Shown here: positions 9,894 through 53,604 of the stretch, in pieces | Position numbering within the stretch: the first letter of the stretch is position 1 | Layout of the letters: every line of letters starts with the position of its first letter | From: a virus | Length of the DNA stretch: 59,819 nucleotides | Reading direction: 5' to 3' (one strand) | Virus record (IMG/VR): IMGVR_UViG_3300033149_006677 | Location: 1-59,819 of that record | Program-made: the position numbers and the translations under genes | The notes under the pieces: generated by a model | What the model was told of the DNA's origin: nothing | The model's database searches: none | Seen by the model: the letters and a program-made list of their open reading frames with translations, nothing else

Positions 9894-10742
9894 ATGGCTA
9901 TCTCTAAAGTAAGCGATCTCAATGATCTCTTTAACGAAATCTACGAAGATGCGCTTTTTGTGGCCCGTGAGGCCAATATCATGTCTGGTCTTGTTCAAAA
10001 CCTATCGGCGCGGGGCTGGATGGATCGCAAGGTTGGCATCTATCCTGAGGTAACTGCCGTCGCTGTTGGTGAAGCGGAGGATTTCACTTCTCCGACCACG
10101 TTTGACAAGACTCTTAACGCCACACTTTCGCCTGGCGAAGTGATGGCACAAATCTTGCTGAGCGACCGAAGGATTGATACTGATCCAGACAATGCTCGAC
10201 AAGATGCTGCTCGTGAGCTTGGCATGGCAATTGCTAAGAAAATCGATGTTGACTTGCTAGGCGATTTTTCCGACTTTACCACTGACAAAGGGCCTGGTGC
10301 TGGTGGGACGGCAACCATCGCAAAGTTTGCGACAGCGGTAACCGTTCTGCGGAACGAAAACGCTCCTAACCCCCTGTATATCGTGCTGCATCCATATCAG
10401 TGGCATGACATCTGGGTAGAGCTTGGTCAGCCCGCCGCCAACAAGGCACTTCTTGGCGATGTTGCCAACCGCGCATTGCGTGACTTCTTCGTTGGCGATT
10501 GGTTGAACTGCCAGTGGTTTGTCAGCTCTAACATCGAGGTTGATGATAGTGATGATGCCGTTGCTGGTGTCTTTAACCCGCAGGCGCTTGCACTGGATAC
10601 TCGCAAGCCTCCGACGTTGGAGATTGAGCGGGATGCGTCCAAGCGCGCGTATGAGCTGAACATGTCTGCCGGTTACGCTCATGGCGTGTGGCGAGACGAG
10701 TTTGGCGTCAAGTATACATCCGATGCCAGCGAGCCGAGCTGA
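9894..10742 (+). CDS. Major capsid protein, 282 aa
   Basis: Predicted HK97-fold shell protein. The N-terminus carries a helical arm (FNEIYEDALFVAREANIM), followed by an E-loop-like segment and the long spine helix around ARELGMAIAKKIDVDLL. YIVLHPYQWHDIW and a DWLNCQWFVSSNI strand are typical of P22/N4-gp56-like capsid proteins. Ribosome binding site AAAGGAG. It directly follows the scaffold gene, which strongly supports the call. Confidence 0.9.
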   Translation: MAISKVSDLNDLFNEIYEDALFVAREANIMSGLVQNLSARGWMDRKVGIYPEVTAVAVGEAEDFTSPTTFDKTLNATLSPGEVMAQILLSDRRIDTDPDNARQDAARELGMAIAKKIDVDLLGDFSDFTTDKGPGAGGTATIAKFATAVTVLRNENAPNPLYIVLHPYQWHDIWVELGQPAANKALLGDVANRALRDFFVGDWLNCQWFVSSNIEVDDSDDAVAGVFNPQALALDTRKPPTLEIERDASKRAYELNMSAGYAHGVWRDEFGVKYTSDASEPS

Positions 10743-10757
10743 TAGGAGGTACTAACA

Positions 10758-11147
10758 ATGTTTCAAAGTGAAGTAAGGTTTCCGATCGTAGCGACTCTTG
10801 ATTACGATCCTGGTGCAGACGATGTTATCCCCCTGTGGAGATGCCCGTCTGATCTCGAAGGCGCGGTCATCAAGAGTGCTATGGCGGTTGTAGCAAACAG
10901 TGTGGCGGCAAGCACGACCAACTACTTTAGCCTGAATTTGCTAAACGGTGGCACGGCTGGCACCGCTACTACGGTAATCTCTAGCACAGTTGGCGGTACC
11001 GCTGGCTGGACTGGCCTCACCCCAAAATCGTTCACGATTTCGGCTGGCACGATCGCTGCTGGCGAAGTTGTATGTCTGAAATACAATGAGAATGGCACGG
11101 GCACATTCACTCAGCTTACCGTACAGCTGGATGTGGTATACAAGTAA
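10758..11147 (+). CDS. Probable capsid decoration protein, 129 aa
   Basis: Beta-rich, Gly/Thr/Ala-rich small protein without Cys. Gene order (right after the capsid protein) and strong AGGAGG site suggest an abundant structural protein such as a capsid decoration or head-fibre base. No sequence family recognised. A long hairpin follows immediately, probably lowering expression of the genes downstream. Confidence 0.6.
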   Translation: MFQSEVRFPIVATLDYDPGADDVIPLWRCPSDLEGAVIKSAMAVVANSVAASTTNYFSLNLLNGGTAGTATTVISSTVGGTAGWTGLTPKSFTISAGTIAAGEVVCLKYNENGTGTFTQLTVQLDVVYK

Positions 11148-11197: not shown

Positions 11198-11548
11198 ATG
11201 CGTACTTTTATGGAGTATCTGCAAAGATGGTTTCAAGGCGCCGAGACTCCTAATGTTGATGTTGCCTCGATCACTCTTCCCAGCGCCGTTTACAATGGGC
11301 AAAAAACTGTTACCACGGCGGGCACGGCGGAAGCGTTGGCATCTTCTCAAGAGCTAGTAAGTGGGGTAAGAATCAAGGCACTAAGTGGTAATGCAGGGAA
11401 TATCTATGTGGGCGATTCTAGTGTAGATTCTAGCAATGGGTTTGTGTTAGGTGCTGGTGAAGAGATATTCGTTGAGATAGACGATTTAGCGAAGGTATAC
11501 ATCGATGCTGATAACAACGGCGAGGGGGTAAGCTATCTTGGCTGCTAG
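11198..11548 (+). CDS. Small beta-rich virion protein, 116 aa
   Basis: After a short helical N-terminus the protein forms a compact beta domain (VSGVRIKALSGNAGNIYVGD, then a VYIDADNNGEGVSYL end). This type of domain is common in phage head fibres and decoration proteins. GGGAG upstream of the ATG. It overlaps the next gene by 11 bases, so the two proteins may form one structure. Confidence 0.6.
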   Translation: MRTFMEYLQRWFQGAETPNVDVASITLPSAVYNGQKTVTTAGTAEALASSQELVSGVRIKALSGNAGNIYVGDSSVDSSNGFVLGAGEEIFVEIDDLAKVYIDADNNGEGVSYLGC

Positions 11549-12290
11549 ACACAGGCTCAGGCCAGCATGGAGAAGGCGCGCTGATGTCTCTGGTTTGTGG
11601 ACCCCGCGCAAGCTGGGCTCTGCGCTTAAACTGTGGCTCAGGGCTGACGGGGAAACATATCAGGATGATGCTGGTACTGTTCCTGCGGTTAACGACGGGG
11701 ATGTAGTTGGGTGCTGGAAGGATCAGAGTGGAAACGGGAATGATGCTGCTCAGGCAACGACGAGCAAGAAGCCATTACTGAAACTGGGGATCAGAAATGG
11801 AAAGCAAGCATTGCTGTTCGACGGCACCGATGATTACTTATGGGCCAATCTCATGCAATCATTATCGCAGCCGTTTAGCGTATTTGCCGTAGCCCAACTA
11901 CTAGTAGCTGGAGACGATACGGCAAAACATATCATTGGTGGCTCAACAACAGACGAGCTTTCTCTTGGACAGCATCCATCAAGCAACTGGTTTTGCAATG
12001 CAGGAACAACGCTTCAGGATGGAAGTGCTGACGAAAATTGGGATATCTGGTCTGTGCTTTTTAATGGGGTGAACTCTGAACTACGTATCAATGGTAACAA
12101 TGTGGCATCTGGGGATGCGGGAACAAATAATCCAGACGCAACTGCCATTGGCAGAATGGGACCCTTTTCGACTGGTTTTTGGGAGGGATATATAGCGGAG
12201 ATTATTATCTGCGATCCCAGCCCAACTAATAATGATCGAGACAAAGTAGAATCTTATCTAGCCAAGAAATACGGGATAACATTATCATGA
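11538..12290 (+). CDS. LamG/concanavalin-like adhesin, 250 aa
   Basis: After an Arg-rich N-terminus the rest is a concanavalin/LamG-type beta sandwich: LWLRADGET, a WKDQSGNGNDA motif, LLFDGTDDYL and a C-terminal GYIAEIIICD...KVESYLAKKYGI block. These domains bind sugars and often sit on phage heads or tails as surface adhesins. The start is TTG 11538 with GAGGGGG upstream. Location right after head genes suggests a head fibre that binds host or environmental glycans. Confidence 0.75.
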   Translation: MAARHRLRPAWRRRADVSGLWTPRKLGSALKLWLRADGETYQDDAGTVPAVNDGDVVGCWKDQSGNGNDAAQATTSKKPLLKLGIRNGKQALLFDGTDDYLWANLMQSLSQPFSVFAVAQLLVAGDDTAKHIIGGSTTDELSLGQHPSSNWFCNAGTTLQDGSADENWDIWSVLFNGVNSELRINGNNVASGDAGTNNPDATAIGRMGPFSTGFWEGYIAEIIICDPSPTNNDRDKVESYLAKKYGITLS

Positions 12291-12983: not shown

Positions 12984-13688
12984 ATGAAAATCTTAATCAC
13001 TGGCGCAGGCGGATTTTTTGGTTCCTGGTTAATTCCCAAGTTACGTGGACACAAAATCACCCAATATGATATTAAAGATGGGCATGACATCTTCGATGCG
13101 AAATGCTTATTAGAAAAAATGCAAGGACAGGACGCGGTTGTTCACCTAGCCGCTTATCCTAGCTATAGAACAGACATCTATCCGCAACTGTATACTCGTC
13201 TGAATATCATCGGGGTAGCCAAAGTCGTCGAGGCTATGTTGAAAACGGGAACGAAAAAGTTGGTTTACATCTCTAGCGGTTCGGTTTATGGCTTCGGACC
13301 AGAAAGGCCGATGGAAGGTTGGGTAACTCCACCGATTACAGAGGAACAATTTCCTACCAAAGAGCAATGGAAACTACTCGACGTTTATTCTGCCTCTAAG
13401 CTGGCTTGTGAAGCTTGGTTGAAAAACATACAAGATATTAATACCATTATTCTCAGGATAAATTGTATTGAGCCATATCATGAAGGCGCCAAAGACAGAG
13501 GGGATCATTGGGGATGGTGGTGCAGTCAGCGTTTGGCTGCGCGCGCAATCAGAGCCGCGCTTATCTATGATACAGATTATATGATAGTAAACGTCGGCGA
13601 AAAGAATCCCAATCTAGATACCACCAAGCTCAAAGAATTGCTCAGGGTGTTACGCAAACAAAGAAAGGATAACGAAGATGTTACGTAA
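12984..13688 (+). CDS. NAD-dependent sugar epimerase/dehydratase, 234 aa
   Basis: Extended short-chain dehydrogenase/reductase acting on nucleotide sugars. GAGGFFGSW (residues 7-15) is the NAD-binding glycine motif, VYISSGSVYG holds the catalytic Ser, and YSASK the catalytic Tyr/Lys. At 234 residues it is shorter than usual (about 300), because the C-terminal substrate domain is reduced, so the substrate cannot be guessed. First gene of the glycan cassette inserted between head and neck genes; overlaps the next gene. Confidence 0.85.
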   Translation: MKILITGAGGFFGSWLIPKLRGHKITQYDIKDGHDIFDAKCLLEKMQGQDAVVHLAAYPSYRTDIYPQLYTRLNIIGVAKVVEAMLKTGTKKLVYISSGSVYGFGPERPMEGWVTPPITEEQFPTKEQWKLLDVYSASKLACEAWLKNIQDINTIILRINCIEPYHEGAKDRGDHWGWWCSQRLAARAIRAALIYDTDYMIVNVGEKNPNLDTTKLKELLRVLRKQRKDNEDVT

Positions 13689-14958
13689 GGAATTTGGCAT
13701 AGGCCCGTTCTATCAGAGCTTTCCAGAGTCTGGTAACGCGGTACAGCCTATCAAAGAGCTCGAATCTCTTGGAATCCCTATTGTTGTTCGTTGTATGGAC
13801 ACGGATCGTATGTCGAGGAATCCGTTTCCTGGGCACATCGTGCATACTCGCCTGTGGCTTGAGCTAGATGCACATCGTAAGGGTGATGCCTTTGAACACT
13901 CTCTGATGGACCGAGGAGTAGAGGGCGCCAAGCAATACATTGAGTATTTGCGCCCACGTTACGAACGACTTTTGGCAATGGGCCTTGAGCATATTTCCGC
14001 TACGAATGAGCCACATCCACACGTCGTAGAGCAATTGCAAAGATACACCGATTTCGAATGCTATTGGGCCGAGCAAGTTGGAAGAATGGGTTTCAAGCCT
14101 TGGGTTTGGGATTGGGGAGTTGGCTGGCCCCCCGAAAATACCGAAGAGATCTGGGGCAAGGCGGTAGAAGTTGCGCGCCAATATGGCGGAGGGCTTTGTG
14201 TTCACGAATATGATGCCCCTACTTTGTTCTCCAACCTTGGTTACCACACATTGCGCCTTCAGATGTATGTTCCCAGGCTAGTAGAGCTAGGCTTCGTTTC
14301 TCCAGAAGACGATGGCTGGATTTTTATAGGTGAGTGCGGAATCGATGGTGGTGTTATCGACTGGCGCCATGATCCTGATTTTATAGGCATAACTCCCAAG
14401 AAGGGCTGGCGAGATTGGGCCAAGTCTTGGGCGTATGATGGCTCAGAGTATGGTTTGCCAAAGAAGACTTCGCTAACAGAGGAACTCTACTTTGCCATGC
14501 TCAAAAAGCTTTGGAATTACTACAAAGAATGGCCCGTACTTGGTGCGACAGTCTTTGTTACCCACCCGTTCAAAGATTGGCAGAGCTTTGACTACAATGC
14601 AAAGTTGATTCGCTTAACAGCCGACGAGTATATCAGAGTATATCTGGAACCAGAGGCGCCATCTGAGGATGAGCTCCCAGAGCACATCGCCAAAATTGCG
14701 CCGAGGATCATAGATTTTGCCCACGAGGTTGTATTACCGCTGAATGAAGAAGCAGCGCTTTTCCGCGCTGGATATGCAAGGGGATTAATGCCTGCCAGCG
14801 ACGAATATGGCTTTATCGACATAGACAAAGATGGCAACACGACTTGCGACATTGTTCTCCAAGTCTTTCGCACAAGGGACAATCCCTACAAGCTCTATAT
14901 CGGCATGTGCGATAGAGGTAAATGGGATAAAGTCTACTGGCTTGAGACTGATAACTAG
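13678..14958 (+). CDS. Glycoside hydrolase-like TIM barrel protein, 426 aa
   Basis: The N-terminal about 310 residues look like a clan GH-A barrel: ISATNEPHPH places the likely acid/base Glu after Asn on strand 4, and FIGECGID supplies a likely nucleophile Glu near the end of strand 7. A separate C-terminal domain (about 340-426) follows an acidic linker. It could cut host capsule or exopolysaccharide or act on glycans made by its neighbours. No signal peptide, so it is either virion-bound or released at lysis. Confidence 0.7.
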   Translation: MLRKEFGIGPFYQSFPESGNAVQPIKELESLGIPIVVRCMDTDRMSRNPFPGHIVHTRLWLELDAHRKGDAFEHSLMDRGVEGAKQYIEYLRPRYERLLAMGLEHISATNEPHPHVVEQLQRYTDFECYWAEQVGRMGFKPWVWDWGVGWPPENTEEIWGKAVEVARQYGGGLCVHEYDAPTLFSNLGYHTLRLQMYVPRLVELGFVSPEDDGWIFIGECGIDGGVIDWRHDPDFIGITPKKGWRDWAKSWAYDGSEYGLPKKTSLTEELYFAMLKKLWNYYKEWPVLGATVFVTHPFKDWQSFDYNAKLIRLTADEYIRVYLEPEAPSEDELPEHIAKIAPRIIDFAHEVVLPLNEEAALFRAGYARGLMPASDEYGFIDIDKDGNTTCDIVLQVFRTRDNPYKLYIGMCDRGKWDKVYWLETDN

Positions 14959-14960
14959 GC

Positions 14961-14988
14961 TTTACAAATCGACAAAGCATGGTATAAT
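14961..14988 (+). promoter_or_regulatory. Internal promoter of the glycan cassette
   Basis: TTTACA (14961-14966), 16-bp spacer, TATAAT (14983-14988), 30 bases before the ATG of the radical SAM gene. It lets the second half of the cassette be transcribed independently of the late operon. Confidence 0.7.
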
Positions 14989-15018
14989 AGTATCACACAA
15001 TAACATATAAGGAGAGTT

Positions 15019-15804
15019 ATGCATCTCTGCATAAACCCTACTTGGAAGTGCCAGAACAATTGTATGCACTGCTGGTTAAACCACTCCATTCGTCAACGCC
15101 CCCAACTTCTGAATGCTAGCACCCGCCCCCTTGAAGACTGGATAAAGGCAATCAAGCGTACCAAGCCAGAGCTGGTAGACATCGCTGGAGGAGAGCCCCT
15201 GCTAGTTCCTTGGATTGCCGATCTAATTGCTAGCTGCCCAGAGACAAGATTTGGACTTAGCACAAATGCTTTGAGCATAGAGGGTGTTCGAAGACTAACC
15301 AAAAAGCGCTTGGCGAACCTAATATCTATCAATGCTAGCATTCACCCAGAGACGAGAAAGCGAAACTATGGCGCATTCTTTTTCTTGCAGGTTCGGCGCT
15401 TGGTAGACGCTGGTTATACAGTACATTGCAATGTCGTCGATTACGAAGATACCGTAAAAAGGGCCGAACATATTATCCAAAGGCTTAACCTACTCAAGGT
15501 GCCGGTAGTCGTTTCGCCATACGAAAACGTTAAAGAGCTGGCGAAGCTTTCTCCGATCAAGCTTCGCTGTAAGGCTGGACGGAATCATCTAGTTGTCGGC
15601 CCAGACGGGCTTGCATGGCCTTGTCTAACTACATTGCGTTCACCATATTGGGAAGAATATATCCTTGGCAATTGGCTAGATGATGATATTGACTTAAGCA
15701 AAGTCCCCAACCCATGCATGTTAAGATGTACAGACTACTTTGTCCTTATTGGCAAGCACCATGCTGGTGATATGTGGGGTGTAAAGCCAGAGCAAGTAAA
15801 ATGA
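15019..15804 (+). CDS. Radical SAM/SPASM-like enzyme, 261 aa
   Basis: CQNNCMHC near residues 11-18 is the CX3CX2C motif that binds the 4Fe-4S cluster, and DIAGGEPLL is the GGE SAM-binding motif. The C-terminal half has further cysteines (CKAG, WPCL, PCMLRC) resembling a SPASM/auxiliary-cluster domain. These enzymes modify peptides or sugars by radical chemistry. The gene has its own promoter and AAGGAG site, and is coupled by ATGA to the amidase gene. Substrate unknown. Confidence 0.85.
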   Translation: MHLCINPTWKCQNNCMHCWLNHSIRQRPQLLNASTRPLEDWIKAIKRTKPELVDIAGGEPLLVPWIADLIASCPETRFGLSTNALSIEGVRRLTKKRLANLISINASIHPETRKRNYGAFFFLQVRRLVDAGYTVHCNVVDYEDTVKRAEHIIQRLNLLKVPVVVSPYENVKELAKLSPIKLRCKAGRNHLVVGPDGLAWPCLTTLRSPYWEEYILGNWLDDDIDLSKVPNPCMLRCTDYFVLIGKHHAGDMWGVKPEQVK

Positions 15805-16343
15805 AAATAGACGGTAGATGCCTAACCATTCCCGAATTCATACAATATGTAGATAGTCTCACAAATATGAGCCCTCCGATTGCCATTTTTCTACATCACA
15901 CATGGAAACCTACTACACAGGGCTGGGGGGGAAAGCGCACAATTCGGGCTATGGCCAACTTCTATGAGCAAAAGATGGGCTGGGATGCTGGGCCACACGT
16001 CTTCGTGGCGCCAGATGGGATTTGGCTTTTTACCCCCTTGGATCGAGACGGCATAGGCGTCAAGGGACATAACAAATGGACCAAGCATATAGAAATGGTT
16101 GGTAACTATGATACCAAGTTACCTGAGGGCGCAATTCTTGAAAACACCATTGCTGTTCTTGGCTACCTACTATACAAATTTGGCCTACCAATGCAGAACC
16201 TATTATTCCACAGAGATTTTTCGTTCAAGACCTGTCCTGGAAAAATGGTAACAAAGGAGTGGATTTATCCAAAGGTCGGGCTTTGGATAGAGAAATATAT
16301 CACGGAGACGATAAAGAGGAAGATCGATGCGTATTCTGGCTAG
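15801..16343 (+). CDS. PGRP/amidase_2-type peptidoglycan amidase, 180 aa
   Basis: Probable N-acetylmuramoyl-L-alanine amidase. FLHHTW (first Zn ligand His), a GPHVFV strand and FHRDFSFKTCPG (second His and Cys ligands) match the family. Start is ATG 15801, overlapping the previous TGA. No signal peptide, as for holin-dependent endolysins. It is embedded in the glycan cassette, so it is either the endolysin or a virion cell-wall hydrolase. Confidence 0.85.
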   Translation: MKIDGRCLTIPEFIQYVDSLTNMSPPIAIFLHHTWKPTTQGWGGKRTIRAMANFYEQKMGWDAGPHVFVAPDGIWLFTPLDRDGIGVKGHNKWTKHIEMVGNYDTKLPEGAILENTIAVLGYLLYKFGLPMQNLLFHRDFSFKTCPGKMVTKEWIYPKVGLWIEKYITETIKRKIDAYSG

Positions 16344-17499
16344 TTCAAATTCGATGCATGCGCCAACTGGATATGGCGTACAAATGAAAGGCTTGTTACC
16401 AAGGCTACAAAAAGCGGGTCATGATATTGCTATGTTCGCGTGGTATGGCCTCGACGGCGCTCCTATCAATGCGGGGAAGATAAAGATCTATCCAAAGGGG
16501 CGACATCCTTTTGGGGCAGACGTTATCGGGCTACATGCTAGAGATTGGCGCGCAGATGTAGTCCTTACGCTGCAAGATATTTGGCCATTGCCAGAGGGCT
16601 ATGGAGCACAATGTGGCGTTCCGTGGTTGGCCTGGTTTCCCGTAGATCATGAGCCAGCGCCGCCGAGAGTAGTCGCCAGGGCAAAGGAGGCTTCTTATCC
16701 CATTACATACAGCAAGTTTGGCTATGAGATGATGAAAGAAGCCGGCGTGGAGACAACGTATATCCCACACGGAATTGATACAGGCGTTTTCTGTCCTGGT
16801 GACAAGAAGGCTGCGAGGGATCGCCTTGGCTTGCCACATTCCGCGTTCATCATAGATATGGTCGCCGCCAATAAAGATGTTCCAAGCAGAAAGGCTTTGT
16901 GCGAGAACATTCAGGCATTCAAGATTTTTCACGAGAGGCATCCAGACTCTATCCTCTACTTACATACGAGCATGATGTCTCCAACTGGTATTAACCTGCT
17001 GGCGTTTCTAAAGAGAATTGGCTTGGGAGACGACGCTGTACGCTGTGTAGATCAATATCGTTATAACAGTGGGCAATTGTCGCAATACTACATGGCGCTT
17101 ATCTATCAGGCCAGCGACCTTCACCTCGGTGCTGCGATGGGAGAGGGCTTTGGTATTCCGATCTTAGAAGCACAGGCTTGTGGCACCCCCGTGATCACCA
17201 CTAACTTTACGGCAATGCCAGAGTTAACTTGGTACGGTATCGCGGTTGAGCCCCTGCAACTTTTCTATACGCCCCTGGATTCATTCCAAGCGTGGATAAG
17301 CATTGAGAATGTAGCTGAGGCACTAGAGACCATCTACTCTTGGGATCAAGATACGCACAAATCTCTTCGTGCGAAGGCACTTGAAAAGGCACGGGAGTAT
17401 GATTGGGACAAACTGATTGAGGAGTATTGGCTACCCTTCCTGCAACAGGTTGAAAATGAGCTTGGCGCAGGTCTCAGCATGGTAACGTTTGAAGGATGA
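16327..17499 (+). CDS. GT4-family glycosyltransferase, 390 aa
   Basis: GT-B fold transferase using a nucleotide sugar. The N-terminal Rossmann domain opens with a TGYGVQ glycine loop, IPHGIDTGVF lies at the linker, and the C-terminal donor site shows MGEGFGIPILEAQACGTPVI with the EX7E-type acidic pair. It overlaps the amidase gene by 17 bases. Probably glycosylates a virion protein or a host-surface glycan. Confidence 0.9.
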   Translation: MRILASSNSMHAPTGYGVQMKGLLPRLQKAGHDIAMFAWYGLDGAPINAGKIKIYPKGRHPFGADVIGLHARDWRADVVLTLQDIWPLPEGYGAQCGVPWLAWFPVDHEPAPPRVVARAKEASYPITYSKFGYEMMKEAGVETTYIPHGIDTGVFCPGDKKAARDRLGLPHSAFIIDMVAANKDVPSRKALCENIQAFKIFHERHPDSILYLHTSMMSPTGINLLAFLKRIGLGDDAVRCVDQYRYNSGQLSQYYMALIYQASDLHLGAAMGEGFGIPILEAQACGTPVITTNFTAMPELTWYGIAVEPLQLFYTPLDSFQAWISIENVAEALETIYSWDQDTHKSLRAKALEKAREYDWDKLIEEYWLPFLQQVENELGAGLSMVTFEG

Positions 17500-18743
17500 G
17501 AATAGCACTATATAACCCACCAGTTTTTCACTATACAGGCATACACTATGCGATTAATCCGCCGCTAGGGCTACCTATTCTTGGTTCGGTGTTGCGCAAT
17601 GCGGGCCACGAAGTGGAGATCGTAGACCTAGAGGCGTTAATGATTTCGCCACAGCGTTTAAGCATGCAATATGCCAAGCAAAAGGAGCGCTGGCCTGACG
17701 TTGTTGGATTTACCTGCCTATCACAGAACGTGCGTGGTGTTGCGGATGCGATCACAGCATTGCGATATGCTGGCTTCGACAGACCTATTATTGTAGGTGG
17801 GCCACATGCAACGTTGTTCCCTAAAGAGATTCTAGATATTGGTGCCGATATTGCCGTTCGTGGCGAATGTGAAGGAAATATCGTATCGATCATAGAGAAT
17901 CTTGAGGGGCCTATCATACAGGGGCAGAGAATGCCCATTGAGGATATTCCCGTCCCTCTTTGGGGAAGGCATATGCCAAAGCCAAACCAATACTCTGGCA
18001 ATCTCCCGAGGATAGATTTCCCAGAGGCGATCACTATGTGGTCGCGTGGTTGCCCACATCGCTGCATTTTCTGTGCTAATCCTGTATTCAGACGCCAAAA
18101 GATACGGCGTCGTCCTCCAGAAAACATCTTGGAGGAATTACAGGGGCTACGACGTTACAACATTCGTAGCCTTTTCGTTTACGATGATGAGCTTGTCGGC
18201 GGCGGAGGAGTGAGTTGGCTTTCCCAAGTATGCTATACCATTGCGCCACTAGGATACACTTGGAAATGCCAAGGACGCTGCTCTAAGCGCTTTGTAACGA
18301 AGGATCTACTACAGCAAATGTATGATGCTGGTTGCAGGGCGATAATGTGGGGCATAGAATCTTTTCACGAAGATATTTTACATAACATTCGCAAGGGGAC
18401 TACTGAGGAAGACATTTGGCATACATTACGTGCTGCCCACGAGGTTGGAATTGGCAATTGGGCTTTTCTGATGGTTGGAAACTACGGCGAAACAGAGAAG
18501 CATCTAGCTTATACAGAGAGGCAATTAACGAAAGCCGTCCGAGAGGGTCTTATCCAATGGCGACAGGTCACGGTATGCACACCCACTCCTGGCTCCGATC
18601 TATACACGATAGCACAGCAAGAAGGATGGTACACAAAGCCACCAGAAACTGGTCCACAGATGGCACAGGTATATTCGTCTACCCCTTGGCTTACCGCGAA
18701 ACAGATCAAAAAGTGGAAAATGAGGCTAGAAGCAGCAAGATGA
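17496..18743 (+). CDS. B12-binding-type radical SAM enzyme, 415 aa
   Basis: An N-terminal cobalamin-binding-like Rossmann domain (residues 1-140, with PPLGLPILGSVLRNAGHEVE and IIVGGPHATLFP) is followed by CPHRCIFC at about 186-193 for the 4Fe-4S cluster and a radical SAM barrel (MWGIES). Family members methylate unactivated carbons or rearrange substrates. It lacks an obvious DxHxxG cobalamin ligand, so B12 would bind base-off without His, as in many of this class. Coupled by ATGA to both neighbours. Confidence 0.85.
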   Translation: MRIALYNPPVFHYTGIHYAINPPLGLPILGSVLRNAGHEVEIVDLEALMISPQRLSMQYAKQKERWPDVVGFTCLSQNVRGVADAITALRYAGFDRPIIVGGPHATLFPKEILDIGADIAVRGECEGNIVSIIENLEGPIIQGQRMPIEDIPVPLWGRHMPKPNQYSGNLPRIDFPEAITMWSRGCPHRCIFCANPVFRRQKIRRRPPENILEELQGLRRYNIRSLFVYDDELVGGGGVSWLSQVCYTIAPLGYTWKCQGRCSKRFVTKDLLQQMYDAGCRAIMWGIESFHEDILHNIRKGTTEEDIWHTLRAAHEVGIGNWAFLMVGNYGETEKHLAYTERQLTKAVREGLIQWRQVTVCTPTPGSDLYTIAQQEGWYTKPPETGPQMAQVYSSTPWLTAKQIKKWKMRLEAAR

Positions 18744-19711
18744 AAGTGATGATGTTACACTATAGGCAAGATCGTGGCGGTGGAGCAGAAAGCTCCTTAC
18801 GCGATCTATCCAAAGCGCTTGAGATGTGTGGGGTCGAAGTCGTTCAGTGGTTTGGCCCAGTAGAAGGGGGCATCAAGTTACATCGACCAGACATAGTACA
18901 CGTTCAGACGGTTCATTGTGTCGGTTGGGGGCGAGCATCAATCGAGTGGCTACAAAAGAATAACTATCCTCACCTATTGGCGCTGCACGACTATTGGTCT
19001 TTCTGCTCTGGCAGGATGTTGCTAAGACTTGGGGATATGTCTTGTGCCGCCGTGGACGGCGTCTGTGATGGAAATTGTGATAACGTAAACGTTTTCGACA
19101 TTTGGGGAAAACTAGTAAACAACTCACCAACCATTACGTTTAACCCATACTCTGTAGAAATCTTTGAGCGAAACGGAGTAAAGATAGATTATTGCGTTCC
19201 ACATGGTATCGACACAGACTTCTTTAAGCCAGGATTAATAAAGTGTCTAGATGCGAAAATCGTTACTGCAACAGCTTGGCCTGGTGCACTAACGAAGGGA
19301 ATGCATATCTTAGATAAGGCATTAAAGAAAGCGAAGCTTACCGCGAGGTGTATTTCGAGCGTATCGCGAGCGGAAGTCCGCGATGCCTTGCGAGAAGCGT
19401 CTATTTTTGTCTTCCCATCTTGCTATGAGGAGACCTTTGGCCTTTGCCTAGCGGAGGCGATGGCATGTGGTCTTGCCTGTATCGCTTCCGATGTAGCAGG
19501 CGCAAAATATCAGGCGGAACAATCGGATGCCGTCGTTATTGTTCCAAAGCGAGACCCCGATGCTTTAGCGGAGGCACTGCACAAGCTAGCTACAATGCCT
19601 CACAGACGATACTACTTGGGGCTTATGGCGCGTAACTACATGGAACAACACGGCACTCTTTTGCGCATGGGCCAAGATTATGTTAAGATATACCAAGAAC
19701 TAATCGGATAG
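18740..19711 (+). CDS. GT4-family glycosyltransferase, 323 aa
   Basis: Second GT-B transferase of the cassette. Key segments are RGGGAESS (acceptor-side glycine loop), VPHGIDTDFFKP and CYEETFGLCLAEAMACGLACI with the donor-binding EX7E. ATG 18740 overlaps the previous TGA; a longer in-frame extension upstream lies inside the radical SAM gene and is a shadow. A Cys cluster near residues 94-115 is unusual for GT4 enzymes. Confidence 0.88.
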   Translation: MKVMMLHYRQDRGGGAESSLRDLSKALEMCGVEVVQWFGPVEGGIKLHRPDIVHVQTVHCVGWGRASIEWLQKNNYPHLLALHDYWSFCSGRMLLRLGDMSCAAVDGVCDGNCDNVNVFDIWGKLVNNSPTITFNPYSVEIFERNGVKIDYCVPHGIDTDFFKPGLIKCLDAKIVTATAWPGALTKGMHILDKALKKAKLTARCISSVSRAEVRDALREASIFVFPSCYEETFGLCLAEAMACGLACIASDVAGAKYQAEQSDAVVIVPKRDPDALAEALHKLATMPHRRYYLGLMARNYMEQHGTLLRMGQDYVKIYQELIG

Positions 19712-19718
19712 GAAAACT

Positions 19719-20297
19719 ATGGCAATCAGAGATGGTATGTCAAATCTTATAGCCAGGTTACGCAGACTTATCAGTGATACCAATAATGAAGTCTGGGATA
19801 ACGACGACCTACAGGATGTTCTAGATGAATTCAGAGTAGATATTTTTGAAGAGTCACTGATTAGCAAGCCACAGATCATCTATTCAGACGACGAGTCGAA
19901 AACTGTATATCACTGGTACTATTCCAAATACGGTAATTTTGAAGAGGCTACCAGTGGGACTCTTGCCTGGCGCGTCTACGATCATCTTGGTGAAACCATA
20001 GGTACTGCAAACTACACGGCAGATTATATTCGGGGGCATATTTACTTTACAGCGGACCAAGAGGGAAGCGCCAGGTATTTAGATGCAAGAAGTTATGACA
20101 TCTATCGTGCGGCGGCATACTTGTGGCGCGAACGCGCAGGGCAATTAACAGACCGTTACAACATAAGCATCGACGGCCATAGGATGAACAGATCTGAATG
20201 GTTCGAGCACTGTATGCAAATGGCTGAGCGATTCGAGCAGCTCGCGGGGCCCACGGTATCTACGCTGGTAAGACATGATGTTAACATAGAGGGATAA
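19719..20297 (+). CDS. Head-tail adaptor (gp15-like), 192 aa
   Basis: First neck gene after the cassette. The N-terminal helix (MSNLIARLRRLISDTNNEVW) and the YDIYRAAAYLWRERAG helix resemble the SPP1 gp15/HK97 gp6 adaptor that binds the portal. Followed by head-closure, tail-completion and tail-terminator genes in standard order, with overlapping start/stop. Confidence 0.75.
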   Translation: MAIRDGMSNLIARLRRLISDTNNEVWDNDDLQDVLDEFRVDIFEESLISKPQIIYSDDESKTVYHWYYSKYGNFEEATSGTLAWRVYDHLGETIGTANYTADYIRGHIYFTADQEGSARYLDARSYDIYRAAAYLWRERAGQLTDRYNISIDGHRMNRSEWFEHCMQMAERFEQLAGPTVSTLVRHDVNIEG

Positions 20298-20671
20298 TGT
20301 TAGAGACAAACGAACTAGCTAATATCAGAGCTGACATAGAAGATACATTTGACAACACATGCACAATCTTACGCCCCACGATTTCGTTCACTGCTAGCAG
20401 GGCAGTGACGACTACCTGGGGCACAGTAGCTACAAATGTAGCTTGCACGCTCAGGAAATCGCAGGGACAGATTGCGGGTACCCGTGCTATTGCTGGAGAC
20501 AAAATTATAGAACAGGCGACGTATTATTTAAGCTTGCCATATGATCAAGACATTAAGGTTTCAGACCGTGTGGTTATAAACAACACCACATACGATGTTC
20601 GCACAATAAATGCCGATGACGCAACACGTGGCTGTCTACGCGCCGTGATAGACGAGGCAGAAACAGAATGA
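20297..20671 (+). CDS. Head closure protein, 124 aa
   Basis: Small beta-barrel protein of the gp16/Phage_H_T_join type: TCTILRPTIS opening, WGTVATNVACTLRKS and KVSDRVVINNTTYDVRTI strands. It would plug the portal-adaptor channel and form the docking surface for the tail. Overlaps neighbours on both sides. Confidence 0.75.
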   Translation: MLETNELANIRADIEDTFDNTCTILRPTISFTASRAVTTTWGTVATNVACTLRKSQGQIAGTRAIAGDKIIEQATYYLSLPYDQDIKVSDRVVINNTTYDVRTINADDATRGCLRAVIDEAETE

Positions 20672-33241: not shown

Positions 33242-33407
33242 GTGAAAGGGGCGGGAACGGAATCACACAGCGAACAAGAAAGGAGCGATGAGAGTGAGAG
33301 AAGGAGGGTGCTGTGTCGTATTATTCTGTTTTATCGCGGGCAAATATCGGTATGGGAATTCGGCAATCGTCAACATTATTGATAACCCATACCACTCGGC
33401 CCTGCAT
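33204..33407 (-). ncRNA. Candidate Y RNA 2 (Ro60 partner)
   Basis: The RNA starts 5-7 bases after the -10 at 33412-33417, almost exactly at the Ro-binding stem. Lower helix: GC-A-GGGC (33405-33399) pairs with GCCC-GC (33341-33336), with a bulged A. The internal loop is CGAGU on the 5' side and GAUAUUU on the 3' side. Upper helix: GGUAUGGG with CCCAUACC (8 bp), then GUUAUCA. This copies the Ro60-binding region of animal Y RNAs (GGUCCGA...GGGUUAUC). Downstream, a 7-bp pairing (33310-33316 with 33265-33271) closes a long pyrimidine-rich loop. The core is about 71 nt; the 3' end is probably at the terminator, giving about 200 nt, unless processed. Confidence 0.75.
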
Positions 33408-33676: not shown

Positions 33677-35341
33677 CTAATCTCTCTTGGAGAACAAATC
33701 TCCACGGACAAATCTTTCCAATACTTTCAGTGCGCCCGTGTCAAGACCAACGATGCCTAGCGAACCAGGGTCCTCTGGGTCGAGAATTGTTATATCCGTA
33801 GCCGTCATCGCAAGGACAAAAATCTTTGCGTCTGGATTCACATATTTCCGATACTGTTTAAGCGCCTCTACTGGATGCGTATCACCATACCACGTTTCGG
33901 AGTCGGTGATAACACCGAATACATCAACTTTGATATTATTATGTAGGGCATACAGCATCGGCGCGGCACAATCTGTAGCACCAAAATATAGGCGATTCGA
34001 TCGCTCAATCACATCTCTTGGCCCATCACCTGGCAGTACGATCAATGGTTGCACGTGATGAGAAAACGCAGTAGTTCTCACCTTGTCCCCAAGCTTATTT
34101 ACGAACATGGATGCTATAGCGGCGCCCGCTTCCCTACAGGTAATGTTCCTCATGGGGCTTTCCCAATCCATAGACCCAGAGACATCAAGCGCCAATAACA
34201 CCGAGGTATCTCCCAGATCAACATTATCCATAGACAGGAAAAATGCTTGCTCAAGCGCGGCCTCAATATCGTGGTCAATTTGAAGCCTATCTCTTACTGC
34301 ATCTGGGTCTTGCATATACATCAGCTGTAGGTATTTATCCTCTTTCGGCTTAACATATGCTAGCAATGCCTGCAATACAGACATAGGATGGATTCTCGCA
34401 ACGCGCAGATATTTTGGACTGGTAACCCTGCTGATGAGCAGCTCCTTATACTTCTTATCTTTCCAAATGCCGCGGGAGCCCAGTTGCCGTATATTTCTGA
34501 GCAATGCGTCGAGTGGCATATCGGGCAGCAGCTCTTTCCAAACGTCATCGTCATTCAGCCATTTGCCTGGCACAAACTCCCAAGCAGCGCGGTTTTCTCT
34601 GATGAGCGATATAACCTCTTCCTTGGTCTGTGCTCTCTTTAGCCTTTCGACAAGACCGATCGATGGTAACGAAAACAAATCGCAGAATTCTACAGACTCG
34701 CGCTCTACTTTTCCTAATGCCCAACGGTATGCCAGGTTATGTCTCTTGTCTTGGCATCTCACATGTGCCAGGCGCAAGACATCCCTATGCGTCCAGCGTA
34801 CCCCCTCGATAGTTCTGCCTTGGTACTTGGCCATTTGGAAACCAATAGCGTCAAGATCTTTGCCATTATACCAGCTTTCGATCAGTCGTCTGATTCTACG
34901 ACCCCAGCCACGCAGTGCGTTAATATAGTGTACGAACATGAACAGATGTGTACCCGTGCGCACTACTTTGCGGAATGCGCAACCCGCATACCTATAATCG
35001 TCCTTAAAGGCGATTAGGTCAGGTAGAAAAGCAACAGCCAGGGCAAAAAGCGCTGGATTGTTCTTGGGCGCTCGCCCCTTGGTAGAGACATCGACGATCA
35101 TATCGATCGCCTTTTTGTAGTTTTCGTTTAGACACTCTTTGATGCGTTCGTAGTTGCTCTTAACGAGGTCGCGCTCTTTTACATAGTACGTACCGCCCTC
35201 AGCACCGAGAATCAGAAAGCGCTCAAATGCTTCCCACTTATCGGTTCTATAAGCATAGCCACCCGCATTATTTGGTTGCATTCCTGGTGGCGGCTCGCTT
35301 TGTAGCATACCCAACTGCATGAAATGTTTTGCGTATGGCAT
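33677..35341 (-). CDS. rsr: Ro60/Rsr orthologue (TROVE + vWA), 554 aa
   Basis: Ring-shaped RNA-binding protein that holds Y RNAs on its surface and the ends of misfolded RNAs in its central hole. TROVE landmarks are RFLILGAEGGTYYVKE near residues 37-52, THLFMFV, and WTHRDVLRLAH. The vWA domain has an intact MIDAS: DVSGSM near 386-391, GATDCAAPM near 454 and TDSETW near 482, all as in animal and bacterial Ro60. Length is close to the usual 530-540. Start ATG 35339-35341 has AGGAGGG upstream; the in-frame extension to 35485 crosses the promoter. It has its own promoter and is followed by two Y-like RNAs. In Deinococcus the Ro60-Y complex ties to PNPase for RNA decay. Confidence 0.95.
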   Translation of the reverse strand: MPYAKHFMQLGMLQSEPPPGMQPNNAGGYAYRTDKWEAFERFLILGAEGGTYYVKERDLVKSNYERIKECLNENYKKAIDMIVDVSTKGRAPKNNPALFALAVAFLPDLIAFKDDYRYAGCAFRKVVRTGTHLFMFVHYINALRGWGRRIRRLIESWYNGKDLDAIGFQMAKYQGRTIEGVRWTHRDVLRLAHVRCQDKRHNLAYRWALGKVERESVEFCDLFSLPSIGLVERLKRAQTKEEVISLIRENRAAWEFVPGKWLNDDDVWKELLPDMPLDALLRNIRQLGSRGIWKDKKYKELLISRVTSPKYLRVARIHPMSVLQALLAYVKPKEDKYLQLMYMQDPDAVRDRLQIDHDIEAALEQAFFLSMDNVDLGDTSVLLALDVSGSMDWESPMRNITCREAGAAIASMFVNKLGDKVRTTAFSHHVQPLIVLPGDGPRDVIERSNRLYFGATDCAAPMLYALHNNIKVDVFGVITDSETWYGDTHPVEALKQYRKYVNPDAKIFVLAMTATDITILDPEDPGSLGIVGLDTGALKVLERFVRGDLFSKRD

Positions 35342-35366
35342 AGTTACCCTCCTATTGTCTGAAGAT

Positions 35367-35395
35367 ACTATAACATAAAGGCGCGAGTTTGTCAA
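35367..35395 (-). promoter_or_regulatory. Promoter of the Ro60 gene
   Basis: Minus strand TTGACA (35395-35390), 17-bp spacer, TATAGT (35372-35367). It is divergent from the replication promoter; the two -35 elements are only about 10 bp apart. Confidence 0.85.
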
Positions 35396-35405
35396 ATATC
35401 GAGAC

Positions 35406-35434
35406 TTGACTAGCTTTTCGTTTTGTGCTATACT
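35406..35434 (+). promoter_or_regulatory. Promoter of the replication operon
   Basis: TTGACT (35406-35411), 17-bp spacer ending TTTTGTGC, TATACT (35429-35434). The last 8 bases of the spacer equal those of the Y-RNA promoters. Confidence 0.85.
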
Positions 35435-35440
35435 ATTATC

Positions 35441-35592
35441 GTCGGTGGGCGAGCTAGTTAGTGACACCCCAATATCCCCAAACAACTATTAACAAGCTCA
35501 AGTCACATTGCAGAAGACTCCGAAAACCGCACAAAATACCCAACGCGCAGATAAATGCCCACCGGCAGTGGGGCGGGAATTCCCGCCCCACT
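35441..35592 (+). other. Structured leader of the primase mRNA
   Basis: The transcript begins near 35441, about 177 nt before the primase ATG. CGGUGGGC (35441-35448) pairs with GCCCACCG (35557-35564), closing a domain of about 108 nt. Inside, GAGCU-A-GUUA (35449-35458) pairs with UAAC-A-AGCUC (ending near 35497). A perfect 26-nt palindrome (35567-35592) then forms a terminator- or sequestrator-like hairpin before the coding region. The layout suggests an attenuator or riboswitch-like element, or a small RNA ending at the hairpin. No known riboswitch class recognised. Confidence 0.55.
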
Positions 35593-46182: not shown

Positions 46183-46262
46183 TGATAAATGGAGGAGAAA
46201 ACTAAAGTGGGGATGTTAGTCTACACCTTTGGTTACCAGGGGCGCGATCCGCAAGAGTTGCT
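46151..46262 (+). repeat. Duplicated 112-bp segment, first copy
   Basis: About nine in ten positions match 46845-46956. It spans the 3' end of the 74-aa gene, the ribosome binding region and the first 25 codons of the DUF488 gene. Scar of a tandem duplication. Confidence 0.85.
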
Positions 46263-46851
46263 AATGTTGTCGAGGCGACATAAGGCTGCAATAATCGATG
46301 TGCGCTATCATCCGCTGTCCGAGGACAAGCGGTGGAACAAGGGTGCGCTCAAAAGGCTGTTTCGAGAGCACTATTTTTGGATCCGCGATTTCGCAAGCGT
46401 CCGCGATGTGTGTGATGGCAAGGCGAGAATCGTGAATTTTTGGAGTGGTGTGAAGAAGTTGAGAGAGCTTTATTATTGCTCATATATACTTCTTTGCGAG
46501 GAAGAGCATCCAGATGACTGTCATAGAACGACCGTCGCCAAGTGGTTAGACGAAGAAGTGGCTGGATTTGAGTACAAGGGCGACATGGGCAATATGGATG
46601 TTGTCTTTGTGGAATCGGTGGTCTTTAGCTGGTTAGTGTCATTGACCAAGCGCCGCGGAGAAAGCGGGAGAAATCCGCGCCTCGGCTTTACAAAGGTAAT
46701 CTCTGGTTGGTGCGTTATTCCTGGCTGTGAGAAGCAACCATACATTGGGATTGAGATGTATGGAACCGACAAGGAAATTCGCAGGATGGTTGATAAGGCT
46801 ATACAGAGGCGGTTTGCTCAAGCGTATGTACATGTTTTCGAGAAGGGGTAG
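46189..46851 (+). CDS. DUF488-family protein with C-terminal extension, 220 aa
   Basis: DUF488 core: VYTFGYQGRDPQELL, IIDVRYHPLSEDKRWNK, and LLCEEEHPDDCHRTTVAKWL (conserved Cys-His-Arg). The family is thought to be enzymatic or nucleic-acid-related, but its reaction is not established. Residues 125-220 are an extra domain with CVIPGCEKQP. It has a tandem paralogue at 46883-47293 that lacks this domain. Confidence 0.85.
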   Translation: MEEKTKVGMLVYTFGYQGRDPQELLMLSRRHKAAIIDVRYHPLSEDKRWNKGALKRLFREHYFWIRDFASVRDVCDGKARIVNFWSGVKKLRELYYCSYILLCEEEHPDDCHRTTVAKWLDEEVAGFEYKGDMGNMDVVFVESVVFSWLVSLTKRRGESGRNPRLGFTKVISGWCVIPGCEKQPYIGIEMYGTDKEIRRMVDKAIQRRFAQAYVHVFEKG

Positions 46852-46956
46852 TAATGCTTGGCTGTTTGGAGAATGATGATAAATGGAGAAGAAAACTAGA
46901 GTTGGAATGTTAGTTTACACATTTGGTTACCAGGGGCGCGATCCGCGAGAGTTGCT
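46845..46956 (+). repeat. Duplicated 112-bp segment, second copy
   Basis: Second copy of 46151-46262. Before the second DUF488 start it retains a remnant of the 74-aa gene's last codons in the same order, which fixes the breakpoint in that gene. Confidence 0.85.
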
Positions 46957-47293
46957 TACGCTTTGCAAGCGTAAGGATGCCGTTGTGGTCGATGTGCGTT
47001 ATTCGCCACGATCTAGAAACCCGCGTTGGAATAGGCGGATGCTAGAAAAAGTGCTTGGCGAGCGTTACGTCTGGATTCGCGAGTTTGGAAATAAAAACTA
47101 TGCGACTGGTGGCAGGATCAAGCTTGTGGACTTTGCCGCTGGAGTGGAGAAACTGAATGGCTTGCAGTATAATTGTTGTATCCTTCTTTGCCAAGAGGCG
47201 GATCCCGACAAGTGTCATCGGAAGGTGGTGGCAAGAATGTTGAATCGGCAGGGCTTTGTCTATCTTGGCGAGCTGAAAGGAAAAGCGAGATAA
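46883..47293 (+). CDS. DUF488-family protein, 136 aa
   Basis: Short DUF488: VYTFGYQGRDPRELL, VVDVRYSPRSRNPRWNR and LLCQEADPDKCHRKVVARML. Duplicate of the preceding gene but without the extra C-terminal domain. Its stop overlaps the start of the DUF5131 gene (TAATG), and DUF488 and DUF5131/Gp37-68 proteins are often neighbours in phages. Confidence 0.85.
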   Translation: MEKKTRVGMLVYTFGYQGRDPRELLTLCKRKDAVVVDVRYSPRSRNPRWNRRMLEKVLGERYVWIREFGNKNYATGGRIKLVDFAAGVEKLNGLQYNCCILLCQEADPDKCHRKVVARMLNRQGFVYLGELKGKAR

Positions 47294-48006
47294 TGGCGGG
47301 GAAATCAAAGATCGAATGGACAGACGCTACATGGAATCCGACTATGGGCTGTACCAAGGTTAGCCCAGGTTGTAAGCATTGCTATGCAGAGCGAATCGCC
47401 AAGAGGCTTAAGGCGATGGGAGTACCTGGCTATGAGCGCGGCTTTGAGCTGAGCATCCACAGTAACCTCTTGGACCGCCCTTTGCGCTGGCGGAAGCCTA
47501 GAATGGTATTTGTAAACTCTATGAGCGATCTCTTTCATGAGGATGTTCCTGAGTGGTTTATTCAGAGTGTTTTTGCGATCATGCACAAGGCTTCGTGGCA
47601 TACGTTTCAGATTCTTACCAAGCGCTCTGGGCGCTTGGCGGAGCTTGCTCAGAAGCTGGATTGGGCGGAAAACATCTGGATGGGGGTGTCGGTGGAAAAT
47701 GAGGATTACTTGTTTCGCGTAGATGACTTGCGAAAGACTGAGGCCAAGATCAAGTTCTTATCGTTAGAGCCATTACTTGGCCCGCTTCCGCGTTTGGATT
47801 TAGAGGGGATTGATTGGGTTATTGTTGGTGGGGAGTCTGGCCCCAATGCTAGACCTATGGACATCGGCTGGGTGAGAGAAATTCGTGACAAGTGCCTAGA
47901 GGCAGGGATTCCGTTTTTCTTCAAGCAATGGGGTGGAGTGAACAAAAAGAGCACGGGGCGTGTCTTGGATGGAAGAGTCTGGGATCAAATGCCAAGCAAG
48001 GGGTAG
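47293..48006 (+). CDS. DUF5131 (phage Gp37/Gp68 family) protein, 237 aa
   Basis: KIEWTDATWNPTMGC followed by SPGCKHCYAE gives the family's Cys cluster, which is likely to bind a 4Fe-4S centre in a radical-SAM-like barrel. Later motifs NSMSDLFHEDVP, ILTKRSGRL, SLEPLLGPL, VGGESGPNARPM and FFKQWGG are all conserved in this family. Reaction unknown. The start is ATG 47293, overlapping the previous stop; an in-frame extension upstream is a shadow. Confidence 0.9.
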   Translation: MAGKSKIEWTDATWNPTMGCTKVSPGCKHCYAERIAKRLKAMGVPGYERGFELSIHSNLLDRPLRWRKPRMVFVNSMSDLFHEDVPEWFIQSVFAIMHKASWHTFQILTKRSGRLAELAQKLDWAENIWMGVSVENEDYLFRVDDLRKTEAKIKFLSLEPLLGPLPRLDLEGIDWVIVGGESGPNARPMDIGWVREIRDKCLEAGIPFFFKQWGGVNKKSTGRVLDGRVWDQMPSKG

Positions 48007-52178: not shown

Positions 52179-53234
52179 TTACTTGATCTCTTTCACCTTA
52201 TCCCTGATGGCGCGCAAGGCTATAGGCCATGTGTCCTTGCCATCGTACATGGCAAACGCGACGGGCATTGCGCGCTTAGGGATATTCTTCACAACCCATT
52301 GTGCGAAGCTTGCGCGATCTTGGTCAAGCTCTGACGCAATGTTGGCTTTCGTGCATTCAGAGACAACCTCGAGGGCATGATTCTCTATACGCGATACGAT
52401 GGACAAAATACGGGGCAAGAATTCGTCTGGTATTCCCTCGATGTAGTCGGGTAAAGAACCATCCAGCATATACTGGTAGATGCGCTTGGGCGACATATTG
52501 TAGAGCATACGATGGACTCTAAGATAGTCATCGCCCTTGAACTTGAATCGTTGGCCGTCCTTGAATCTTGCTACAAAGCCTTCCATCTCCGCAGCTTCTA
52601 TCTCTCTGGTCGCATCGATGAGCTCATCGATGTTACGGAAGAACCACATTTTAGGCGTAGACAGATTCAGCTCCTTGGCTAATGGCAGAAACTCTGTCAT
52701 CCAGTAGTCCTGTCCCGTAAAGCGATCAATGCAGCCTATTAGCACCAATTCGCTTTTTCCCTTGTAATCTACTACTATTCGGTTTTCTGGATAGATAATC
52801 TCGAATAGCAGCGTTAGATTGTCGGGGATCTTGGATACATCCACGTGCTTGTTGAGCCATTCGGTTGCCCATAGTGCTTGGTCGGATGTAAACGACTGCT
52901 TTGTCGCAATCTTGTGTTCGCCATTCTCGCGATACAAGATGCCCAGGGAGCCGTCCATCTTTGTGGTCACTTCCCGAAGGGGGGCGGATGTGACCCGCCC
53001 CCCTTGATTCCAGTTGAAAAACTTTTCGAATGGTAGCGCGACAATCTCTCTCGTGCTTGGATTGAGAATAAGGCCACGGCAGATACGCTCTACCCAAGGC
53101 CATTTATCCTCTATCACCGCATTCCTGGTGTAGTGCAGTAGCACCAGATCATTGTGTTTTATGCGGCGGATGTTCCAGAGCTTTTCGATTTCTACGCCGC
53201 GCTCGATCATGTCAAACAGGACACTGATATTCAT
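52179..53234 (-). CDS. T4 Rnl1-like RNA ligase, 351 aa
   Basis: ATP-dependent RNA ligase that joins 3'-OH and 5'-phosphate RNA ends. TTKMDGSLG gives the adenylated Lys (K92) of motif I, CRGLILNPSTREIVALPFEKFFNW lies upstream as in Rnl1, LLFEIIYPENRIV is motif IIIa/IIIb-like, EGFVARF motif IV, and RFKFKGDDYLRVH motif V. Start ATG 53232-53234 has GGAGAG upstream. Last gene of the leftward operon. It may repair tRNA cut by host defence nucleases, as T4 Rnl1 does. Confidence 0.88.
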   Translation of the reverse strand: MNISVLFDMIERGVEIEKLWNIRRIKHNDLVLLHYTRNAVIEDKWPWVERICRGLILNPSTREIVALPFEKFFNWNQGGRVTSAPLREVTTKMDGSLGILYRENGEHKIATKQSFTSDQALWATEWLNKHVDVSKIPDNLTLLFEIIYPENRIVVDYKGKSELVLIGCIDRFTGQDYWMTEFLPLAKELNLSTPKMWFFRNIDELIDATREIEAAEMEGFVARFKDGQRFKFKGDDYLRVHRMLYNMSPKRIYQYMLDGSLPDYIEGIPDEFLPRILSIVSRIENHALEVVSECTKANIASELDQDRASFAQWVVKNIPKRAMPVAFAMYDGKDTWPIALRAIRDKVKEIK

Positions 53235-53244
53235 CTCGTCTCTC

Positions 53245-53604
53245 CTAGATGCCAAGCTTGCGACGAATTAGCTCCACGAATTGTGGACAATACTTGGTTA
53301 TAGCATGTGGTCGCTTGTCGATGAGGCTTTGAGCAATGCGCTTTATTGCGTCCATTGCATCCTCGGCATAGATGGTCGCTGCAATACGGTCGTCTATGCT
53401 AGGATGTGCCCCCTCGCCCCATCGTTTCAAAATATCAATGGTCTCCGACGCGTCTTGGCGCGTCATGTCCTCTGTCTGTAGATCGAACTGGTCAACGAAT
53501 TCCGCAACAGTTGGGAATGCGTCACGGTAGAGATCCGCTTGGCGCTTAATGCGCTCAACTAGATCGTTGATATAGGCCAATTGCTTTTCTGTAGCTTCTC
53601 TCAT
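53245..53604 (-). CDS. Hypothetical helical protein, 119 aa
   Basis: Starts with REATEKQLAYINDLVERI, an ATEKQxxYIxxL motif common to small nucleic-acid-associated phage proteins. Helical throughout. AAGGAGG site. Ends 10 bases before the RNA ligase start; not recognised further. Confidence 0.65.
   Translation of the reverse strand: MREATEKQLAYINDLVERIKRQADLYRDAFPTVAEFVDQFDLQTEDMTRQDASETIDILKRWGEGAHPSIDDRIAATIYAEDAMDAIKRIAQSLIDKRPHAITKYCPQFVELIRRKLGI

Follow-up and report, generated by a model that had tools for sequence, protein, structure and literature searches.

Why would a phage carry two radical SAM enzymes and two glycosyltransferases among the genes for its capsid and neck? The question is raised by an uncultivated virus, IMG/VR record IMGVR_UViG_3300033149_006677, whose entire 59,819 bases are the window analyzed here. 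Positions 1-114 are identical to the last 114 bases, and given this exact direct terminal repeat the record probably represents a whole phage genome. Its head block runs in the order TerL, portal, head morphogenesis, scaffold, major capsid protein (MCP), Dec, private genes, the cassette (12984-19711), and neck genes of the Ad1/Hc1/Ne1 type. We propose that the cassette represents, in this phage, a cytosolic virion-glycosylation locus that is shared across the lineage and whose radical SAM enzymes tailor the glycan, a reading to which we assign a probability of roughly 0.55.

All of the genes in question lie on the plus strand. MCP (9894..10742; phrog_267) is followed by Dec (10758..11147), a predicted jelly-roll cement or decoration protein, and by a LamG-like virion structural protein (11538..12290; phrog_10356) that is private to this phage (no relative in the other loci compared). 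The cassette itself comprises a short SDR or nucleotide-sugar-epimerase-like protein (12984..13688; PF01370, 71 bits; phrog_540), a putative glycoside-hydrolase-like (GH) protein (13678..14958), a radical SAM enzyme with a SPASM/twitch-like C-terminal Cys domain (15019..15804), an Amidase_2 protein (15801..16343; PF01510, 47 bits; phrog_1493), the glycosyltransferase GT4a (16327..17499; phrog_2170, 126 bits), a radical SAM enzyme with a B12-binding domain (17496..18743), and a second glycosyltransferase, GT4b (18740..19711). (The start codons of the amidase, at 15801, and of GT4b, at 18740, are corrected ones.) The slot is closed by an Ad1-like gene (19719..20297) and then Hc1, a head-tail adaptor (20297..20671; phrog_615). 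The Ad1-like gene has a weak PHROG match to a family of unknown function, so its putative role in head completion is taken from synteny; its position and conservation are seen in relatives. Cassette genes overlap by 4-17 bp except for a single 60-bp gap between GH and SPASM, which is the one departure from the overlapping run that a preliminary description had reported. The gap holds an internal promoter, a feature that it had also mentioned: TTTACA-16-TATAAT (14961..14988), 30 bp 5' of the SPASM start codon, matches 11/12 positions of a sigma-70-like site; chance would give 0.18 strong sites of this kind per 12.6 kb, and one was seen.

The gene content given by that description also held, except for the glycoside hydrolase. 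The GH-like protein has NEP at 110 and GEC at 218, 108 residues apart, which recalls clan GH-A, and its label comes from these motifs only. It has no family match in Pfam, PHROG, NCBIfam, or the PDB and no relatives among viral contigs, phages, and plasmids, and its single-sequence structure model (pLDDT 33) is useless for judging the fold, so we treat its identity as unconfirmed. The amidase, for which neither the other loci nor the phages collection yielded a relative, is likely to be an endolysin or cell-wall amidase and may merely be a lysis gene.

The other enzymes are easier to place. The B12 enzyme matches both the B12-binding domain (PF02310, 69 bits) and Radical_SAM (PF04055, 71 bits) above the cut-offs, and CxxxCxxC is kept in 24/24 B12 enzymes. 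By its domains it is a B12-dependent radical SAM protein, for which cobalamin use and methyl transfer are only predicted. Its nearest solved structures are 9ccb and AprD4, an enzyme that has the B12 fold yet is not known to use cobalamin. As the match to AprD4 reaches just 4e-11 (single sequence) to 8e-15 (profile), the reaction of AprD4 cannot be transferred to the B12 enzyme. With the help of a reductase partner, AprD4 strips a hydroxyl from a sugar (PMC5461906), which makes the neighboring SDR suggestive, but no more than that. The AprD4/AprD3 system (apramycin C3 deoxygenation) is alike in pairing a B12-fold radical SAM enzyme with a reductase to act on a sugar, although it serves antibiotic biosynthesis. 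The SPASM enzyme is borderline in Pfam (Radical_SAM 29.8, cut-off 29.5; SPASM 18.4, cut-off 21.5), but C11/C15/C18 (the CxxxCxxC motif) and C184/C202/C233/C237 are invariant across nine aligned sequences. The C-terminal cysteines are those predicted for an auxiliary cluster, which makes it, by sequence, a SPASM/twitch enzyme; with the SPASM score below the cut-off, one auxiliary cluster is likelier than two. (One homolog, L018:17581-18399, has CPNAGICRYC, a Cx5Cx2C spacing in place of Cx3Cx2C, and the same motif check flagged L104, L106, and L107.) Both glycosyltransferases are GT4-type by profile (PF00534/PF13692; phrog_2170). The nearest solved structure to GT4a is chlorovirus B736L (residues 8-346, 6.5e-12). 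B736L is a GT-B enzyme that binds GDP-mannose and has no established acceptor (PMC9614988). Neither the SPASM enzyme nor GT4b had a match in the phages collection (50,697 records) at the limits used. Assignment of a radical SAM enzyme as a viperin (pVip) was rejected (27.5 bits against a curated cut-off of 180), as was a viperin or defense island, for which the PADLOC match was weak and partial (33.5 bits over residues 8-89 only).

Is the cassette an insertion? The preliminary description said so, from the break in head-to-neck gene order, but this is misleading. A search with the B12 enzyme returned 17 viral loci, and wider scans used MCP, SPASM, GT4b, and GT4a as queries; the nonredundant loci were then annotated with profiles. 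Phages with MCPs as far from this one as 34-43% identity again have GT4a, B12, one or two SPASM genes, and GT4b between MCP and the neck genes. GT4a lies 3' of MCP in 56/59 capsid-related loci (those with at least 2 kb downstream), and 57/66 nonredundant loci sampled by GT4a have MCP/Dec upstream or neck or tail-tube genes downstream; the set of loci was built up from cassette carriers, so the two fractions hold for the surrounding lineage of this phage and not for phages at large. The glycosyltransferase is thus linked to virion genes. It shifts among MCP-Dec/Ad1, Hc1/Ne1, Ne1/TCP, and TCP/MTP but keeps to the virion block, and its divergence follows that of MCP (Mantel r = 0.54, against 0.59 for portal and MCP; each 0/500 by shuffle). 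We therefore rejected an insertion limited to this phage. With the locus fixed in the lineage and a GC content of 47.5% against 47.9% for the genome, it is old. What is peculiar to this phage is that SPASM lies 5' of GT4a, that the GH and amidase genes are private, and that the distance from MCP to GT4a (5,585 bp) is the longest in the set of loci compared.

Two named phages share the slot: Microcystis phage Mae-JY09 and Pontimonas phage phiPsal1 have a GT4a homolog directly after the capsid gene or genes and before the neck genes, as here. Unlike here, their versions lack radical SAM genes and GT4b, and consist of GT4-GT2-SDR or GT4-methyltransferase-GT2. (In phiPsal1, an HK97-type MCP by annotation heads the order MCP-GT4-methyltransferase-GT2-neck.) A more distantly related GT4 lies between portal and MCP in S-CBS4, and no GT4a, GT4b, or Dec was found in the Pelagibacter-phage relatives. 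As a separate matter, the Mae-JY09 stretch that we read (L020) has 73% GC; the GC content of Microcystis is far below this, so the host given for it may be incorrect.

Around the constant GT4a, the payload is modular. Of 41 complete slots, 12 are GT4a plus SDR, often with GT2, and 12 carry B12, each time with SPASM and GT4b. These associations are not random (Fisher's exact test: B12 with SPASM, P = 8e-7; B12 with GT4b, P = 1e-8; SPASM with GT4b, P = 2e-8). SDR genes are present in about half of the slots, and the alternative payloads are GT2, methyltransferase, sulfotransferase, GT17, and acetyltransferase genes, which fit glycan tailoring, and MptE-like genes. Mapped onto the MCP tree, presence of B12 takes 6 changes, compared with 15.3 when labels are shuffled, so it has mostly been inherited with the capsid and exchanged a few times; pelagiphage-type MCPs of phages that lack the glycosyltransferases form long branches near the B12 carriers. 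In the nearest MCP relative (L025, 61%), GT4a, a GT2-like gene, B12, and SPASM are displaced by two genes and follow Hc1.

This variability could also mean that the slot is a tolerated cargo site that collects unrelated moron genes. The private GH and amidase genes would suit such a site, as would the HNH-like and methyltransferase genes in some slots. We consider this very unlikely because GT4a is near-universal, co-occurrence is nonrandom, catalytic motifs are kept, and inheritance is mostly vertical.

The same associations bear on whether a virion protein is itself the substrate of the radical SAM enzymes, through RiPP-like C-methylation or epimerization, with glycosylation being separate or later. 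Among NCBIfam models, the B12 enzyme scores highest with the RiPP enzyme ApyD (104 bits, far below the 750-bit cut-off), SPASM enzymes often act on peptides, and the epimerase-type YydG is among the PDB profile matches. But no dedicated precursor-peptide gene was seen alongside, the radical SAM module is statistically tied to GT4b, and the sugar enzyme AprD4 is among the top solved relatives of the B12 enzyme. Direct modification is, in our judgment, improbable.

In L012 and L019, the B12 enzyme also sits in a different glycan cassette that follows an unrelated, HK97-like capsid gene and, as read from the sequences, contains GT2s, a MobA-like nucleotidyltransferase, and an FkbM-like methyltransferase. 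A genome scan found it in one Nanoarchaeota MAG contig (39% identity), which is perhaps viral or misbinned. The B12 radical SAM protein of Streptomyces phage SF3 was rejected as a kindred locus, as it is 26% identical, has nucleotide-metabolism neighbors, and is not in a glycan locus. In L129 (4821-7193), and also in L014, L015, L016, and L017, an intein interrupts the B12 gene exactly at the third Cys of CxxxCxxC (junctions RGCPHRCIF|CVTGDT...GVAISN|CANTIFG), and a ribonucleotide-reductase-like gene downstream (1,026 aa) apparently holds a second intein.

Which virion protein might be glycosylated? The MCP of this phage ends in ...SDASEPS, and the MCPs of GT4a carriers end in APTS, TPTS, APSS, TEPS, and similar. 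Of 103 MCPs, 71% have P[ST] among their six C-terminal residues; the figure for other 6-mers is 3.6%, and no other protein class tested exceeds 5%. The motif is present in 21/34 representatives below 60% identity. It is found in 0/6 relatives that lack the glycosyltransferases and in 0/80 further pelagiphage-type MCPs, which end in DSSIQ, but those 80 are near-copies and the controls amount to essentially one clade plus two strays. We found no match to MCP in the PDB. The tail also tracks Dec (78% of MCPs with Dec have it, against 27% without), so it could instead be a structural tail for docking the cement protein.

Dec itself is the rival candidate. Its AF2 model is a confident jelly roll (pLDDT 93.6), and phage cement proteins make up 5 of its 8 top structural matches (KHP40, GP4, KHP30, BPP-1, and Pam1; Z = 8.2-9.0). 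As unrelated jelly rolls reach Z of about 8, the match in fold is moderate evidence by itself, but Dec adjoins MCP in most relatives, which strengthens the prediction that it is a cement protein. The S+T content of the whole protein is nothing special. Also, Dec is absent from 15/110 loci that keep GT4a, so it cannot be the only acceptor.

The steps that we infer are as follows. GT4a, made alongside the capsid proteins, would take a sugar from a host nucleotide sugar and attach it, as the first residue, to a virion protein that is exposed; the C-terminal Pro-Ser/Thr tail of MCP is the likeliest site, with the adjacent Dec as the alternative. GT4b would extend the glycan. The B12 enzyme could then tailor the sugar or glycan by C-methylation or deoxygenation, the SPASM enzyme by oxidation or epimerization of a carbon, and the SDR might reduce or epimerize an intermediate; these reaction types are guesses from family knowledge. 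The resulting glycan would alter surface recognition. The idea of an unusual modified sugar or a changed virion protein, raised in the preliminary description, is thus the best fit to the linkage with MCP and cement genes, the cytosolic enzymes, the tailoring payloads, and the MCP tail, with the acceptor, sugar, and chemistry as conjectured here. That the locus recurs in this position in many uncultivated and divergent phages suggests that their shells are coated with an unusually modified sugar.

The main rival, which was also raised at the outset, is late remodeling of a host surface glycan, with expression timed by the position among virion genes: this could mask receptors, exclude superinfection, or keep progeny from adsorbing to debris. 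Phage glycosyltransferases are frequently interpreted in this way, and the late-operon position would suit a late surface change too. GT2, methyl-, acetyl-, and sulfotransferase genes, which are found in the slots, are also found in O-antigen loci. Furthermore, in pelagimyophages, which are likewise aquatic, host-recognition regions contain glycosyltransferases and some radical SAM cassettes, and these have been read as modifying the O-chain (PMC7029224). However, those hypervariable regions are located with host-recognition and tail-fiber genes, in contrast to the capsid-neck slot here, and the tight co-location with capsid and neck genes holds across divergent capsids. Also, the cassette has no membrane segment (maximum KD19 of 1.69) and no flippase, polymerase, initiating transferase, or export genes. 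We keep host-surface remodeling as an alternative but consider it unlikely.

Finally, virus-encoded glycosyltransferases can hypermodify DNA (as cited in PMC12619734), and the cassette could belong to such a pathway. This seems highly improbable: 16 related records have no thymidylate-synthase-type hydroxymethylase and no Tet/JBP match above the cut-off (there was one sub-threshold Tet match), and the genes lie in the virion block, away from the replication genes.

Elsewhere in this genome are a Ro60/TROVE protein gene (33677-35485, minus strand; PF25045, PF05731) and, 3' of it, a sub-threshold Y RNA match (33331-33406, minus strand; 25 bits, gathering threshold 38, E = 0.048), a possible phage Ro60-Y RNA pair. 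The same phage encodes a T4 Rnl1-type RNA ligase (52179-53255, minus strand; PF09511), tandem near-duplicate DUF488-type genes (46189-46851 and 46883-47293), and a DUF5131 protein (47173-48006) with very strong matches to the PADLOC candidate defense models PDC-M41B/M30B. A DUF5131 homolog adjoins the cassette in L014-L017/L129.

Virion glycosylation has precedents. In mycobacteriophages (Che8, Corndog, and Myrna; Freeman et al. 2023, as reported in PMC11256854, PMC12619734, and PMC12363180), glycans are on the C-termini of capsid and tail-tube subunits (PMC12619734; PMC12363180). The likeness is in phage-encoded glycosyltransferases and a C-terminal target on the capsid, here proposed to be a Ser/Thr tail; the differences are that our glycosyltransferases lie inside the head-neck block with radical SAM and SDR genes, and that our system is known from genes alone. 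Chlorovirus PBCV-1 glycosylates its capsid autonomously (its GT4 enzymes are B736L and A546L), and B736L is the best solved relative of GT4a; like our phage as proposed here, it has a virus-encoded glycosylation machinery with tailoring enzymes, but PBCV-1 is a eukaryotic virus with N-glycans. To our knowledge, no radical SAM enzyme has been noted in chlorovirus capsid glycosylation.

We tentatively suggest, at somewhat less than even odds, that a widespread uncultivated lineage carries on its capsid, possibly on a C-terminal Pro-Ser/Thr tail, a glycan that is built by a constant GT4 and rewritten by two radical SAM enzymes, and that this diversifying locus makes the first radical-SAM virion glycan. 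If so, capsid glycosylation would be a fixed, modular trait of a large lineage of environmental phages rather than a peculiarity of mycobacteriophages, carried in the capsid operon and swapped in the manner of a serotype locus. The capsid C-terminus would be a testable acceptor, and the slots would offer compact sets of glycosyltransferases and radical SAM enzymes for the study of unusual bacterial glycoproteins. It would also add radical SAM chemistry to the biology of the virion.
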